From NCBI RefSeq assembly GCF_014635825.1, contig NZ_BMDO01000001.1, forward strand, positions 806,001 through 870,000: DNA of 64,000 nucleotides. Direction: 5' to 3'. Made by a program: the position numbers and the translations under genes. Source of the DNA: Mucilaginibacter galii. GTDB lineage: Bacteria > Bacteroidota > Bacteroidia > Sphingobacteriales > Sphingobacteriaceae. Within the stretch, counting starts at the first letter, position 1; each line of letters opens with the position of its first letter. Shown here piece after piece: positions 5,621 to 52,711 of the stretch. The notes under the pieces were generated by a model. The model made no database searches. It saw nothing but the letters and a program-made list of their open reading frames with translations, and was not told where the DNA came from.

Positions 5621-7048
5621 TTAAGGATGTATATTGGTGACCTCGGTTTGGTCATGAAGGAAACGGTAAAGCTCTTCGCCGGTATTAGGATCGCGCGGAA
5701 TCCACGAACCCGGCGAATACCAGCCGTTGCAATAGCCCCCCCAGCCCCAGTTCAGGTGTACCGTTACGTAATAGCCACTCCAGTAGCTTGGGTAACAAGT
5801 ATTAGGAATAGCATGCAAACCATCGGCCACCCACTCGTGCCCGTCGCCACCCCATGGCCAAAAAGAATAAGTACGCCCGGTTAATATTACCGGCCTGCCG
5901 TACGATATACTGCCCAGCATATCGTATGCCGAGTAATCACCTTCATGTACCTCAGCATTAAAGCCTGCCTGCTTAAAATAAGTTTCATGGTTAGGATTAG
6001 CGCCCGATCCGCTTTCATCATAATCCATATTTACAGCGGTACCTATATCCCTGAGCAACCGTGCTGTTTCACTGCTGGCTCCATAATACATATTGCTATA
6101 ATTGTAGCTTTGATAACCAGGTGTTCCGTTAACTCCTATTTTGTTCCATTGAAGTGGTACGTTGCCGTAGTTCCAGTACTTCATGATCTGGCCTATGGCT
6201 ACAGCAACACAACCGGCAGGATCATGATAGCAATAACCGGCGTTACCGTTACCTGGAGCGTAATCGTTATAGCCACATCCCTGCCCCCAGTTAGTTTGCA
6301 AAAGCGGGCCAACGGTATACTCCGTACTGCATGGCGGCGGCGGCACGCATTCTGTACCATCGTAAGTATAACCCTCGGGGCAGGTAACACACTCGTGAAG
6401 TACGCGGTCGTAATAACCATTTTCGCAATACAATACATTGGTTTGCTTGCCCGGCGCTACAGATACCAGGTCGCTCGGGGTGGTTACGCTGCGGTACTTC
6501 ATCCATTCGGTACGGATGGCCATACTATCAAGTGCATGAAAAGTGCTTTTTGTTAATGCTTTAATTTTTTCATGCTCGCTGTAAAGCCAGTTGTTTACCG
6601 GGTGCGCACGCATCGTAACTTCTTTAGGAAAGCTATCAGCATCTGAATATGCCAACACCGGGTGCTCCTTTTTAGTAGTTGATATAACGATGAAGCCGCC
6701 ACCCGTAAAGTTGATTACATGTAACGATGGCTGCCCCTCGGCGTTGTTAAGGGTGTAAGCATCACTTACGGTTTTACTTTTAAAATTAATAGCGGCAGAC
6801 ATGGTACCCGAAGGCTTGTTTATACCAGCCTCCAATTTAATGGTTTGCCCGTTACTATCTTTAATATTGGGGGGTACGGCCATTATTGATGCCGGCACTT
6901 TAAACATACCGGCCATTTTGATGGCCATGTCTAAAGTAATGTCAACACTGGCTTGGGTAATAATTTCTTTTGTTAGGGTATTGTCTTTTTTACAGTTCGA
7001 AAAAAGAAACACCAGGCAAAGCAAAAAGAATGCGTAGTTTTTTTTCAT
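5621..7048 (-). CDS. C10 family (streptopain-type) cysteine peptidase lipoprotein
   Basis: This is a papain-fold cysteine peptidase made as an inactive precursor. The signal peptide ends in LFSNC, so Cys19 is the lipid anchor. Residues 90-150 resemble the C10 propeptide (GGGFIVISTTKKEHPVLAYSD). A Cys-rich linker follows (about 205-240, with CPEGYTYDGTEC and a PPPP run), which is unusual for the family. The catalytic domain starts near VGPLLQTNWGQGCGYN. Cys280 in AGCVAVAIGQIMKYW and His404 in DGHEW are the expected dyad, and LNWGWGG (residues 432-438) provides the Trp/Asn motif. The downstream lipoprotein is tightly coupled. The protein probably acts at the cell surface or in the periplasm. 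Confidence 0.92.
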   Translation of the reverse strand: MKKNYAFFLLCLVFLFSNCKKDNTLTKEIITQASVDITLDMAIKMAGMFKVPASIMAVPPNIKDSNGQTIKLEAGINKPSGTMSAAINFKSKTVSDAYTLNNAEGQPSLHVINFTGGGFIVISTTKKEHPVLAYSDADSFPKEVTMRAHPVNNWLYSEHEKIKALTKSTFHALDSMAIRTEWMKYRSVTTPSDLVSVAPGKQTNVLYCENGYYDRVLHECVTCPEGYTYDGTECVPPPPCSTEYTVGPLLQTNWGQGCGYNDYAPGNGNAGYCYHDPAGCVAVAIGQIMKYWNYGNVPLQWNKIGVNGTPGYQSYNYSNMYYGASSETARLLRDIGTAVNMDYDESGSGANPNHETYFKQAGFNAEVHEGDYSAYDMLGSISYGRPVILTGRTYSFWPWGGDGHEWVADGLHAIPNTCYPSYWSGYYVTVHLNWGWGGYCNGWYSPGSWIPRDPNTGEELYRFLHDQTEVTNIHP

Positions 7049-44398: not shown

Positions 44399-44656
44399 TT
44401 AAGGCAGCAACTTCGTATCGGCAATGCCATACTTTAGCTTCCATTTTTCTATCACGGGCTGTTCTAAAGGTATTTGGCGGTATTCGTCGGGGGCCATAAT
44501 GGGCACGCCGTAGATGATGGGGTACTTGCGCTGGCAGGTGCTGCAGGTTAAAATTCCTTCTATTATATTATCTTCTATATCCTTGGCCAGTACCTGCAAA
44601 TTAAGGTCGTGCTTATCAAAAGGGCAGCACAGTTTTTCAATGGTTTTTAGTTTCAT
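44399..44656 (-). CDS. Trm112-like small zinc-ribbon protein
   Basis: This 85-residue protein begins at the ATG giving MKLKTIEKLCCPFDKHDLNL; the upstream extension is not needed. CCPFDKHDL and CSTCQRKYPI form the two zinc-ribbon knuckles of the Trm112/UPF0434 fold. The GVPIMAPDEYR segment after them is also conserved in that family. In eukaryotes and archaea Trm112 activates methyltransferases; bacterial members are seldom studied, so a partner role with the methyltransferase encoded about 2 kb upstream is possible. It follows the ThiE-like gene on the same strand after a repeat of about 150 nt, so cotranscription is uncertain. Confidence 0.8.
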   Translation of the reverse strand: MKLKTIEKLCCPFDKHDLNLQVLAKDIEDNIIEGILTCSTCQRKYPIIYGVPIMAPDEYRQIPLEQPVIEKWKLKYGIADTKLLP

Positions 44657-44715
44657 GTTAATTCTTTTTAAGTTTTGCAAGGAGCTGTCTAAAAATTTAA
44701 ACCACCCTGTAAGTT

Positions 44716-44798
44716 CGATTGATAACGAGAAATCCTGTTACTCTGTGCCTGTTATTCGCCTTGCAATTTGAACAGGATCTCTCACTATCGTTCGAGAT
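44716..44798. repeat. Inverted repeat of the GAACAGGAT/CTCTC dispersed family
   Basis: CGATTGATAACGAGAAATCC (44716-44735) is partly mirrored by GAACAGGATCTCTCACTATC and GTTCGAGAT (44770-44798). A related pair is at 52583-52678. It lies between the ThiE-like and Trm112-like genes. Confidence 0.6.
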
Positions 44799-44813
44799 AA
44801 CAGTGTGCATTTA

Positions 44814-45464
44814 TTATACAGCTGCTAAAGCTTGTTGATACTCTTTTACTTTTTGTTGCGGATGCCCGGCACTTAAAATGCCCGATATAACGGCCACGCC
44901 ATCAAACGGCGTCTCTTTTTTGAGCAGTGCTATGTTTTCGGGAGTAACACCACCCGATACAAAGATGGGCATGTTAGTCATACCCCGGGCCTGCTTAACC
45001 GTTTGGGGCATTACAATATCGCAGCTACCGGCCGATGGCGAAGGGAACATGGCGCAGAATGACACATAATCGAAGCCATGCTGATATGCCCATTCCACTG
45101 TTTTCAAATTGCCAGAACAGGTAATGCCCGACAGGAATGGCCTGCCCACAGTTTGCTGAATCTCTTTGTAGTTGGTAGGGATAGTATCGAAGTGAACTCC
45201 TTGCAAACCCTGGCATTGTGTAAGCAATTGCCATTCCTCATTAATGAATAACGGAACATGGTAAGTATTACATAAGCCTGCTACGGCTTCTACCCACTTT
45301 AATTTATCAATACCGGCAGACCAGTTGTTCCAAATTTGCACTACATTGATGCCTGCGGCTAACGCTGCCGACAATTTGTTGAGCAATAGTTCCTGTTCCA
45401 TACCCGGATCGAGCACCAGGTAAATTCCGCCTGTTATTGAATGAGATTTTCCCATTACTTCCAT
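44814..45464 (-). CDS. ThiE/TenI-fold protein lacking the diphosphate-binding residues
   Basis: The fold is that of thiamine phosphate synthase: IYLVLDPGMEQE, PLFINEEW, GVHFDTIP and FVSGGVTPENIALLKKE with FDGVAVISGI. ThiE normally grips HMP diphosphate with an Arg and a Lys in QLREK and a T-x-T-K motif. Here QLREK is QIWNN (43-47), so Arg is Trp45 and Lys is Asn47, while the later loop is FPSPSAGSCD with no T-x-TK. The Mg-binding Asp is Glu76. The phosphate-binding GG (170-171) is kept. It may therefore bind a different thiamine-like phosphate or be a regulator. It is last in a TPP-riboswitch operon; its start codon overlaps the PurM-like gene. Confidence 0.8.
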   Translation of the reverse strand: MEVMGKSHSITGGIYLVLDPGMEQELLLNKLSAALAAGINVVQIWNNWSAGIDKLKWVEAVAGLCNTYHVPLFINEEWQLLTQCQGLQGVHFDTIPTNYKEIQQTVGRPFLSGITCSGNLKTVEWAYQHGFDYVSFCAMFPSPSAGSCDIVMPQTVKQARGMTNMPIFVSGGVTPENIALLKKETPFDGVAVISGILSAGHPQQKVKEYQQALAAV

Positions 45465-46504
45465 CCTTCTTTATAAGCGTTAAAAAATGCTGCCCAATAT
45501 GGGTCGGTACTGTAATAGGGCAGGTCTACTTCTACGTCTTCATCTATTAATTTATAGCCTTGCTCTTTGGATGTAAACTCACCTATAACAGTACCCTTAA
45601 TATTATTTTGTTGTAAGCGCTGCAATACGTTTGGTGCGGCTTCTGGTTTAGCGGCCATCACCATTGACCCCGCGCCTACGCAAAAGCGGCTATCAATGCC
45701 GAATAATTTGCAGATACTTTCCTGTGCATTGCCTTTGGGTAATAGCTTATTATCCACCAGTACGCCATTACCCGATGCTATGGCCATTTCATAAACTGCC
45801 CCTAACACACCGCCCTCGGTAACATCGTGCATGCCGGTTACTTCGTGATGTGGTTCGTGGGCACCCGAAGCTATCAAGGCATCGGGTAAAGAAGAGGTTT
45901 GGTAAAACAAGGCACAAGCCTGGTTATAAACTTCTTTACCCAATTTATTCTTTACCGTTTCCGGGAAACACATAGCCAGTATAGCCGAAGAAGACAATGC
46001 ACATTCCTTGGTGATGATAATAACATCGCCTGCGTTTGCTTTATGGCTTAACAAAATATTGTTCAGTGGTGCTGTAAGCAACATGGTACCGCCGCCTGCT
46101 ATAGTGGAGTTTTGCCCTTCTATGCTCCCGGTGTGTCCGCCTGTAATGGCTACGCCAATATCGTTGCAGTATTGATGAATATAATTCCAGTAGGTGGTAA
46201 AATCAGCTTTGGTTAAGGTGGGTGGCAGGTTGAGTACCATTTGGGCATACATGGGTGCAAAACCGGTGGTGCCCATATCGTTGGCCATTAAGTGTACCGA
46301 TAACCAGGCCGATTCCTGCAAGCCCAGCGCCGTTATTAATGATAAAGGGTCGCTGGTAAGTGCCAGTCCTGTGCCGCCGCCAATATCCACCAACGATACA
46401 TCCACCCCAAAAGCCGGTCCGCTTTTAACTTCACTGTGCGGATGGCCGCAACGTGGAAGAATGATTTCTTCGAAACCGCCGTTACTTATTTTTCCTAAAG
46501 ACAT
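45455..46504 (-). CDS. PurM-superfamily (AIR synthase/HypE/ThiL-like) protein
   Basis: The 349-residue protein has the two-domain PurM fold: GPAFGVDVSLVDIGGGTGL (29-47), LALTSDPLSLITALG, HLMANDMGTTGFAPMYAQMV and ITGGHTGSIEGQNS in the first half, then VIITKECALSSSAILAM and DVTEGGVLGAVYEMA in the second. It matches no purM or thiL closely; ThiL phosphorylates thiamine monophosphate, and HypE works on [NiFe] maturation, but no hyp gene is nearby. The Asp in TSDP and the Gly-rich loops support ATP and Mg binding. It is the second gene of the riboswitch operon, starting 14 nt after the methyltransferase and overlapping the ThiE-like gene by 10 nt. Confidence 0.82.
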   Translation of the reverse strand: MSLGKISNGGFEEIILPRCGHPHSEVKSGPAFGVDVSLVDIGGGTGLALTSDPLSLITALGLQESAWLSVHLMANDMGTTGFAPMYAQMVLNLPPTLTKADFTTYWNYIHQYCNDIGVAITGGHTGSIEGQNSTIAGGGTMLLTAPLNNILLSHKANAGDVIIITKECALSSSAILAMCFPETVKNKLGKEVYNQACALFYQTSSLPDALIASGAHEPHHEVTGMHDVTEGGVLGAVYEMAIASGNGVLVDNKLLPKGNAQESICKLFGIDSRFCVGAGSMVMAAKPEAAPNVLQRLQQNNIKGTVIGEFTSKEQGYKLIDEDVEVDLPYYSTDPYWAAFFNAYKEGWK

Positions 46505-46517
46505 AAGTAGGCGGAAT

Positions 46518-47237
46518 TTAGTCTAACAGTTTTACATACAAACCAAAAAAATCGCCCACGGGCACACTCCATTGCTGTACTGGAAACCACTCGGGCAGGC
46601 CGGTACACGTCCACTCCAAACTGTACTGCCGGCCTTTGAGGGCCTCATCAATTTTTTCGATCAGCATTGATGGTGTGTAAAACGTAGCCGTAACATAAAA
46701 AGGATTTTTACCGAACATTTGCTGTACCCGCCTGCGCAATACCTTGGGCGAGTTGCGGTTCATCATACCAAAGGCAATACCATGCTTGCCCACCCGGGCG
46801 GCCTCGCGTATTACCTGTACCGGGTCGCGGTAGTACTCAAAGGTGGTTATGAAGGCCACGGCATCAAAGGTGTGATCTTTAAAAGGCATAAAGTGCGAAT
46901 CGGCATTGACCAGATCGCCTTTGAAAAGGTGTACGGCCTGGCCCAGCATAAAAGGCGACAGATCGCCGCCGGTAGCATCGATGCCTATCTCGTGCCACCA
47001 GCGGGTAAAGCGGGTGGTGCCGCAGCCAAACTCAAGCAGTTCTTTTACCCGCGGGTCTTTGCCCAGCAACTGGCCCATTACCTTTTTTTGCCATACTTCA
47101 GCACGTTTGTAGCGGCCTTCGTACCATTGCTCGTAAGTGTCGGTGTGTTCGCGGTTAAAAAACCATTCTTTACGCCCCTGCCAGTTGGTGAGGCTTTTGG
47201 TCATGAGGCCAAAGCTGTTGTTTTTTTCGAGCTCCAT
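46518..47237 (-). CDS. Class I SAM-dependent methyltransferase
   Basis: This is a Rossmann-fold methyltransferase of 239 residues. Motif I is LLEFGCGTTRFTRWW (67-81), with Glu69 before the Gly loop and Asp92 in GGDLSPFM as the ribose-binding acid. Motif II-like VNADSHFMPFKDHTFDAVAF and post-motif VIREAARVGKHGIAFGM follow. The C-terminal domain (TFYTPSMLIEKIDEALKGRQ) is a substrate cap of unknown target. It is the first gene of the operon controlled by the TPP riboswitch. The substrate could be a thiamine-pathway intermediate, or the enzyme could modify another small molecule. It has no zinc or DNA-binding features. Confidence 0.9.
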   Translation of the reverse strand: MELEKNNSFGLMTKSLTNWQGRKEWFFNREHTDTYEQWYEGRYKRAEVWQKKVMGQLLGKDPRVKELLEFGCGTTRFTRWWHEIGIDATGGDLSPFMLGQAVHLFKGDLVNADSHFMPFKDHTFDAVAFITTFEYYRDPVQVIREAARVGKHGIAFGMMNRNSPKVLRRRVQQMFGKNPFYVTATFYTPSMLIEKIDEALKGRQYSLEWTCTGLPEWFPVQQWSVPVGDFFGLYVKLLD

Positions 47238-47253
47238 TTGTTTAGCGGTTAAA

Positions 47254-47300
47254 TAAAAAAGCCTTGCTCCTTACCGTAAACACGGGTACAGAAACAAGGC
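47254..47300 (-). terminator. Probable riboswitch-controlled terminator ahead of the methyltransferase gene
   Basis: On the minus strand GCCTTG (from 47300) pairs with CAAGGC (to 47261), with an inner TACC/GGTA pair, and seven T follow (47260-47254). It lies between the TPP aptamer and the first start codon, the position of a transcription-attenuating platform. I infer that TPP binding favours this hairpin and shuts off the operon. Confidence 0.75.
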
Positions 47301-47339
47301 CTTTATATCATCAAACAGCTGCGCTGGAAATAACATTGA

Positions 47340-47430
47340 GCCCATGCATCCCTACGCCGGTATTATCCGTATCAGGTTTATCGGGTATTATCTCAGCCTT
47401 CTGTTTTTAAGAAAGCACCCCGTGCAAGTA
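47340..47430 (-). ncRNA. TPP riboswitch aptamer
   Basis: The minus strand carries the thi-box elements in order: ACGGGGTGCT, GGCTGAGATAATACCC, ACCTGATACGGATAATACC and GCGTAGGGA, followed by the closing TGCAT of P1. These are the diagnostic pyrimidine-binding (CTGAGA) and diphosphate-binding (CCTGAT...GTAGGGA) segments of the TPP aptamer. It lies about 100 nt upstream of the methyltransferase gene, and the terminator at 47254-47300 lies between them. The aptamer should reduce expression of the three genes downstream when TPP is plentiful. Confidence 0.96.
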
Positions 47431-47525
47431 TGTGGCTAAGGTAGTTTTTTATATTATAAATTAATACAAGTATTTACGTTTTTAAAATGCGTTGCCTCGG
47501 CAATTACGAAACCTAACTGCAACAA

Positions 47526-52582: not shown

Positions 52583-52678
52583 TGTCATCTCGAACGGCAG
52601 TGAGAGATCTTGTTTAGAGTGCTAGGTCGGCTAACGACTATATCGAACAGGATTTCTCGTTAACACTCGAAATGACAG
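52583..52678. repeat. Inverted repeat of the GAACAGGAT/GTCATCTCGAA family
   Basis: TGTCATCTCGAACGGCAGTG, then AGAGATCTTGTT (52583-52614) is partly mirrored by CGAACAGGATTTCTCGTTAA and CACTCGAAATGACAG (52644-52678). The pair at 44716-44798 shares the same motifs. It lies between the DUF4349 and uvrC genes. Confidence 0.65.
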
Positions 52679-52711
52679 CGGTTTTTTATAAGTTTTTCGT
52701 AGAGTAGCTTT

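Follow-up and report, generated by a model that had tools for sequence, protein, structure and literature searches.

What does a thiamine pyrophosphate (TPP) riboswitch control in a genome in which ThiC, ThiG and full-length ThiD were not recognised? This question is raised by a locus of Mucilaginibacter galii, which lies in a window of 64,000 nucleotides (positions 806,001 to 870,000 of contig NZ_BMDO01000001.1; "the window" denotes this whole stretch, and its numbering is used below). The locus consists of a TPP aptamer, a terminator-like hairpin, and four genes, which are together referred to as the cassette. The conserved cassette, combined with canonical thiamine genes that are mostly missing from its carriers, suggests that vitamin B1 is obtained or repaired in a manner not yet described. 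The parts of the cassette are known folds, whereas the four-gene set itself was not found in the literature searched. In agreement with an earlier note on this DNA, neither family models nor a mostly open-access literature search, with most subscription journals outside its coverage, yielded an established or named thiamine pathway or a description of the set.

The aptamer (47332-47432, minus strand) matched the full Rfam model RF00059 (1-105) with 70.5 bits (cut-off 54.3; E 7.8e-12), and was the only match at gathering score within the window. It is followed on the same strand, in order of transcription, by the hairpin, a class I S-adenosylmethionine (SAM)-dependent methyltransferase (46518-47237, 239 aa; PF08241, Methyltransf_11 E 5.7e-16), a HypE/ThiL-like protein of the PurM superfamily, related to aminoimidazole ribonucleotide (AIR) synthase (45455-46504, 349 aa; PF00586 and PF02769, AIRS_C E 2.4e-17), a ThiE-fold protein with an altered active site (44814-45464, 216 aa; PF02581, TMP-TENI E 8.8e-28), and a Trm112-type small zinc-ribbon protein (44399-44656 from a conserved ATG, the longest open reading frame being 44399-44680; PF03966). 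The methyltransferase and PurM-like genes are 13 nt apart, and the PurM-like and ThiE-like genes overlap by 10 nt. The earlier note had described the aptamer and the first three genes, and the three reading frames were recovered as it had described them; its three-gene composition has to be extended, as the conserved unit includes a fourth gene, for the Trm112-type predicted activator. The gap between the ThiE-like and Trm112 genes is 137 nt in the window and has a median of 15 nt over 59 complete cassettes, five of which have a larger gap than the window (up to 541 nt).

The region between the aptamer and the methyltransferase gene forms a stem-loop of 15 pairs with a U run that resembles an intrinsic terminator (47255-47304, minus strand), and the leader fold has an energy of -59.5 kcal/mol (z -3.3). 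This hairpin is likely the expression platform, acting by transcription attenuation. A generic promoter and terminator scan, in which the loop limit was 8, did not list the hairpin. In the leaders of relatives, a custom script detected a terminator-like hairpin between the aptamer and the methyltransferase in 36 of 53 cases and, by that measure, none in the other 17.

The cassette was compared across 60 distinct Bacteroidota copies, one from the window, 38 from additional genomes of its order, 12 from additional genomes sampled across the phylum, and nine from further loci (L009, a duplicate of L076, was left out). All 60 had a TPP aptamer ahead of the methyltransferase, and 59 of the aptamers scored above the Rfam cut-off (the window; L004 and L010; 20/20; 19/20; 12/12; L003, L005, L007, and L102; L006), the sole one below it being that of L118/L134 (47.8 bits, E 2.7e-6). 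In 59 of the 60, the four genes followed the same order on a single strand within a 4-kb span; in L012, the exception, the contig stops after the PurM-like gene. Because of these two counts, the linkage of aptamer and genes is not due to chance. The survey of Bacteroidota neighborhoods for co-occurrence of the genes with a thi-box, which the earlier note had proposed, therefore bears out its claims that the genes are under TPP-riboswitch control and form one unit, and both the aptamer and the linkage persist in the relatives examined.

Thiamine genes of the carriers

By match to the PurM-like protein, the cassette was present in 39 of 300 order genomes and in 13 of 395 phylum genomes, each count including the window's own genome; the genus and family labels of relatives were taken from the few named records. 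ThiC, which occurred in 171 of the 300 order genomes, was present in two of the 39 order carriers (G057 and G178; the 12 phylum carriers were left out of the ThiC counts) versus 169 of the 261 genomes without the cassette (Fisher p 3e-13), and inside the window's genus in 0/21 carriers versus 14/49 others (p 0.007); these p values and the one below are only indicative because the tests ignore shared descent. Full-length ThiG (>300 bits) was detected in two of 51 carriers, again G057 and G178, and 14 others had partial matches that did not exceed 36 bits, some of them over the low Pfam cut-off of 23. A full-length ThiD-like kinase was found in four of the 51 (G055, G178, G543, and, in two pieces, G057). 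Many carriers, including the window genome (29.3 bits, cut-off 27), gave partial ThiD matches of at most 60 bits, which are read as other ribokinase-type kinases. A second PF02581 protein above the cut-off was present in 10 of the 39 order carriers and absent from 29, and stand-alone PF02581 proteins in the genus were found in 3/21 carriers versus 25/35 genomes that lack both ThiC and the cassette (p 7e-5). ThiL was present in 299 of the 300 order genomes whatever other genes they contained; the idea that the cassette supplies the substrate of ThiL was therefore dropped. The idea that it complements one missing half of thiamine was also dropped, with ThiG and ThiD both mostly missing.

In the window genome (4.86 Mb, 99.99% complete), no ThiC, ThiG, full-length ThiD, thiamine pyrophosphokinase (TPK) of family PF04263, or other PF02581 protein was recognised, and its own ThiL scored 319.5 bits. 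On contig C2 of this genome (L049 8415-11806), a second, weak TPP box (38 bits, below the cut-off) precedes genes for a TonB receptor and a PnuC-family transporter, which are probably a thiamine uptake locus; by eye, an acyl-CoA dehydrogenase-like gene follows them. The genome also encodes a putatively TPK-like protein of about 190 aa (MSSHHIV...). This protein occurred in 49 of 63 genomes searched (37/51 carriers and 12/12 non-carriers), and no Pfam or NCBIfam model matched the two members that were scanned. Sites of the TPK-like protein were seen at L141 (about 6060-6630), L095 (7782-8351), and L101 (8559-9119), and the gene adjoins a stand-alone ThiE in some genomes. A role of the cassette as replacement of thiamine pyrophosphokinase was dropped given the presence of this presumed TPK in 37 of the 51 carriers. 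ThiL, the weak TPP box before the TonB/PnuC genes, and the TPK-like protein together indicate that the window genome can probably import and use thiamine, and that the cassette adds something else.

The four proteins

The earlier note held that none of its three genes is a standard thiamine-pathway gene, and all three proteins indeed scored below the cut-offs of their best NCBIfam models. The ThiE-like protein reached 93.1 bits with thiE (cut-off 145.1). Its AlphaFold2 model (predicted local distance difference test score, pLDDT, 92) has the ThiE-type TIM-barrel fold, with a template modeling score of 0.80 by query length, and the top Foldseek matches were the ThiE structures 1xi3 and 2tps, ahead of TenI. 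Alignment of 58 cassette ThiE-like proteins to canonical ThiE (Bacillus subtilis numbering) placed the changes in the part of the active site that serves pyrophosphate, Mg, and catalysis: R59 was replaced by W in 58/58, K61 and K159 were never K, D112 was never D (P in 54/58), and D93 was kept in 5/58. The presumed pyrimidine-pocket positions were mostly kept (Y 57/58, Q 58/58, H 58/58, and N 47/58), as was G188 (58/58). The two canonical ThiE sequences of Bacteroidota that were aligned with them retain R59, K61, D93, D112, and K159. The altered active site described in the earlier note is thus a constant trait of the family, which also has new conserved cysteines at positions 137 (58/58), 148 (58/58), and 116 (55/58). 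A K159A mutant appears in the title of a ThiE entry of the PDB; the one study found on ThiE residue roles names, in its accessible text, only an S130A structure.

The AlphaFold2 model of the PurM-like protein (pLDDT 89) was most similar to HypE in Foldseek, followed by ThiL and SelD, and the protein scored 65.8 bits with NCBIfam hypE (cut-off 251.6) and 61.9 bits with thiL (cut-off 184.15). The C-terminal cysteine of HypE carries the carbamoyl group. No cysteine was present in the final 25 residues of 44 of 47 PurM-like proteins, including that of the window, and because of this and of the scores below every NCBIfam cut-off, the protein is not called HypE. Comparison of the PurM-like and ThiL profiles gave no clue to the substrate. 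The best three of 46 plasmid relatives are AIR synthase family proteins of Haloarcula (30-31% identity over 96-97%), and all three (L142, L143, and L149) lie beside, and divergent from, genes for thiamine-binding and thiamine ATP-binding cassette (ABC) substrate-binding (ThiB-like) proteins. One plasmid record each of Acaryochloris, Haloferax, and Halobacterium showed no thiamine-linked neighbors of the PurM-like relative. The Haloarcula loci differ from the cassette in that no methyltransferase, ThiE, or Trm112 is annotated within the 4-6 kb shown per side, in a gene table that is incomplete. These neighborhoods are an independent, partial hint at a thiamine-type substrate of the PurM-like protein, and the Haloarcula gene is possibly an archaeal thiamine-linked enzyme of the PurM family.

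The methyltransferase is the slowest-evolving member of the cassette, with a mean pairwise identity of 0.79 compared with 0.57 for the PurM-like protein, 0.57 for Trm112, and 0.47 for the ThiE-like protein (over 39 loci with all four proteins called). Its SAM motif, EFGCGT, was found in 13/13 aligned rows and starts as EYGCGT in some members from the phylum, and its best NCBIfam model, MenG/UbiE, gave 39 bits against a cut-off of 158. Inspection of two haloarchaeal neighborhoods of methyltransferase relatives yielded nothing informative. The small protein matched Pfam PF03966 (33.7 bits, cut-off 22, E 3.5e-8) and remained below the cut-off of NCBIfam NF038101 (62.7 versus 77 bits); the top sequence matches in the PDB were 6zxw_H and 6f5z_C, which are archaeal activator structures. 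The Trm112 signature, given in the accessible text of a review as [C/D]PX[C/D]X19-36CX2C (PMC5372719), was present in 37 of 39 called cassette proteins when tested with C at the first position.

Methyltransferase and Trm112 are co-present in 59 of 60 cassettes. Searched against the PDB, the methyltransferase profile matched 27 sequences at E up to 0.05, including two 18S rRNA methyltransferases, one of them in entry 6g4w, which also contains a TRM112-like chain, and 6f5z_A at E 0.00086. These three are Trm112 partners, and the remaining matches are not known to be. The Trm112-type protein is therefore the likely, predicted activator subunit of the methyltransferase. Archaeal and eukaryotic Trm112-methyltransferase pairs share the signature with the cassette, which has the methyltransferase in the same operon and differs from them in being bacterial and TPP-regulated.

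Possible role of the cassette

Two known TPP-regulated systems of Bacteroidota can be compared with the cassette. The canonical thi operon (L096), with genes for ThiC, TenI-like, ThiE, ThiG, ThiH, ThiF, and ThiD, likewise has a TPP aptamer in front and a ThiE-fold protein, whereas no other enzyme was seen in common and ThiC is anticorrelated with the cassette. The thiamine uptake operon (OMthi, PnuT, and Tnr3; PMC5613172) is also under TPP-riboswitch control; it includes a transporter, which the cassette lacks, and a version with TonB and PnuC-family genes is found at L049. In the accessible text of that study, TPP-riboswitch operons are those of biosynthesis and transport and a methyltransferase is not mentioned (PMC5613172), and the accessible text of another leaves 23 TPP riboswitches without assigned function (PMC2211319). 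HypE and ThiL are similar to the PurM-like protein in fold and profile, although it falls far under both equivalog cut-offs.

We tentatively favor, at a little less than an even chance, a cassette that is repressed by TPP and yields thiamine phosphate or thiamine from a thiamine-related compound. The observed base of this reading comprises the aptamer, the hairpin, the fixed gene set, the scarcity of canonical pathway genes among carriers, and the altered active site, whereas the substrate and the order of the steps are guesses. When TPP is scarce, transcription would pass the hairpin, probably by attenuation, and the cassette would be switched on. A thiamine-related compound, either taken up or arising by damage, would be modified by the methyltransferase and Trm112 as a heterodimeric SAM enzyme, and the PurM-like protein may contribute an ATP-dependent phosphorylation of the substrate or a ring closure. 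The ThiE-like protein may bind the pyrimidine and thiazole-phosphate moieties and join or free the two halves by a pyrophosphate-free chemistry, perhaps via a conserved cysteine; thiaminases work through cysteine. ThiL or the TPK-like protein would finish TPP. A narrower version is rated as unlikely: the ThiE-fold enzyme would replace metal and pyrophosphate by cysteine chemistry, with a pyrimidine donor other than hydroxymethylpyrimidine pyrophosphate (HMP-PP), such as methylated or damaged thiamine, prepared by the methyltransferase and Trm112, and with a thiazole phosphate acceptor from the PurM-like kinase or cyclase. If true, this new route to thiamine phosphate would give bacterial Trm112 a defined metabolic role.

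Several observations weigh against the conversion of a thiamine-related compound by the cassette, the substrate of which is still a guess. No salvage route is known to use a methyltransferase. Most of the 27 profile matches of the methyltransferase are not known Trm112 partners, 6f5z_A standing at E 0.00086, and the anticorrelation with ThiC stands without correction for descent. The uptake locus and the TPK-like protein imply that the window genome may be able to use thiamine without the cassette, and the lineage can do without it, since 10 of 35 genus-mates have neither ThiC, the cassette, nor a PF02581 protein above the cut-off. Moreover, G057 and G178 carry the cassette in addition to ThiC and ThiG, and the 10 carriers noted above retain another ThiE/TenI protein. 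The suggestion of the earlier note that the set could salvage or modify a thiamine-like compound, or repair a damaged intermediate, agrees with how rarely ThiC, ThiG, and ThiD were found in carriers, while the substrate and the reaction remain guesses.

Other explanations share part of this evidence. The cassette might make a methylated thiamine-like product, either an antivitamin or a modified cofactor, that does not feed the TPP pool. The strongly conserved methyltransferase at the first position of the operon is in line with such a product, and the bacimethrin cluster of Clostridium, which includes a methyltransferase and thiamine-related enzymes, is a precedent. This is nevertheless doubtful, as no recurrent exporter, resistance, or tailoring gene was seen in 47 clustered loci or on visual inspection of the 12 loci from the phylum, and both halves of the molecule would have to come from outside in carriers that are mostly without ThiC, ThiG, and ThiD. 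An alternative is a diverged but ordinary salvage module, in which the ThiE-like protein would still work as a thiamine phosphate synthase, with the PurM-like protein as a kinase of the ThiL type. The folds match ThiE and HypE/ThiL, and the cassette and stand-alone ThiE tend to exclude each other in the genus; however, few or none of the 58 proteins retain the residues that bind HMP-PP and Mg, 47 of 51 carriers showed no full-length ThiD, on which the supply of HMP-PP depends, canonical ThiL is already almost universal in the order, and the methyltransferase and Trm112 are left unexplained. An ordinary module is thus distinctly improbable.

That the cassette builds one half of thiamine de novo by a new route, with ring closure by the PurM-like protein and SAM as a building block, appears equally improbable. 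PurM chemistry is ring closure, the conservation of the methyltransferase suggests a demanding chemistry, and ThiC and ThiG are rare in carriers; yet making one half would be insufficient in carriers, which usually lack both halves as well as ThiD, and, for the thi genes tested, G055 and G543 were the only carriers with a ThiD-like kinase and no ThiG. A modification of a macromolecule (tRNA or protein) by the methyltransferase and Trm112, with an operon that is not a pathway for thiamine compounds, is consistent with the match to the 18S rRNA methyltransferase of 6g4w and with known eukaryotic Trm112 partners, which act on tRNA, rRNA, and eRF1 according to the accessible text of the review (PMC5372719). 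The constant TPP aptamer, the linkage to the ThiE-like and PurM-like genes, and a patchy distribution unlike that of a core modification make this the least probable of the explanations, and very unlikely.

If the favored conversion of a thiamine-related compound is correct, it adds a vitamin B1 route to scattered environmental bacteria that are otherwise liable to be classed as simple auxotrophs. In the cassette, moreover, a bacterial Trm112 has an obvious candidate partner; a review from 2017, in its accessible text, calls the function of bacterial Trm112 obscure and mentions fusions to methyltransferases in some bacteria (PMC5372719). One small cassette with a clear switch, and with close relatives that have and lack it, makes these ideas directly testable.

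Flanks, mobility, and minor features

Beyond the four genes, no gene cluster was found in more than four of 47 clustered loci, and candidate additional cassette genes were rejected, with none in the clustered neighborhoods and none apparent by eye in the 12 loci from the phylum, in which only closely related g100 genomes had neighbors in common. A quick tree of 57 cassettes, with Shimodaira-Hasegawa-like approximate likelihood ratio test support only and two long rows, required the Sphingobacteriaceae label to change at least three times along starred branches and grouped Arenibacter with Algoriphagus. One Arenibacter contig contained two cassette copies (L005 and L006) about 32 kb apart with 88% DNA identity. 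The unshared flanks, the tree, and this contig suggest that the cassette is a module moving between lineages. A plasmid-borne cassette was sought in PLSDB and rejected: the 10 methyltransferase records were all below 80% coverage and 60% identity, and the 46 PurM-like and 14 ThiE-like records were all below 60% identity. Searches beyond Bacteroidota comprised this plasmid collection and one genome-contig scan that is sensitive to close relatives only.

A second degenerate type of stand-alone ThiE was observed in genomes without ThiC (L093 7168-7791, L095 7144-7770, and L101 7865-8497), in which the R59 and K159 positions are kept and K61 and N92 are lost. In the window, the intergenic region between the ThiE-like and Trm112 genes contains an imperfect palindromic repeat (44703-44807, no strand assigned) with 37-nt arms that are 76% complementary. 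It looks like an inserted repeat, a small mobile or repetitive extragenic palindrome/miniature inverted-repeat transposable element (REP/MITE)-like element, because a second copy with 76% identity is located at 52583-52696.

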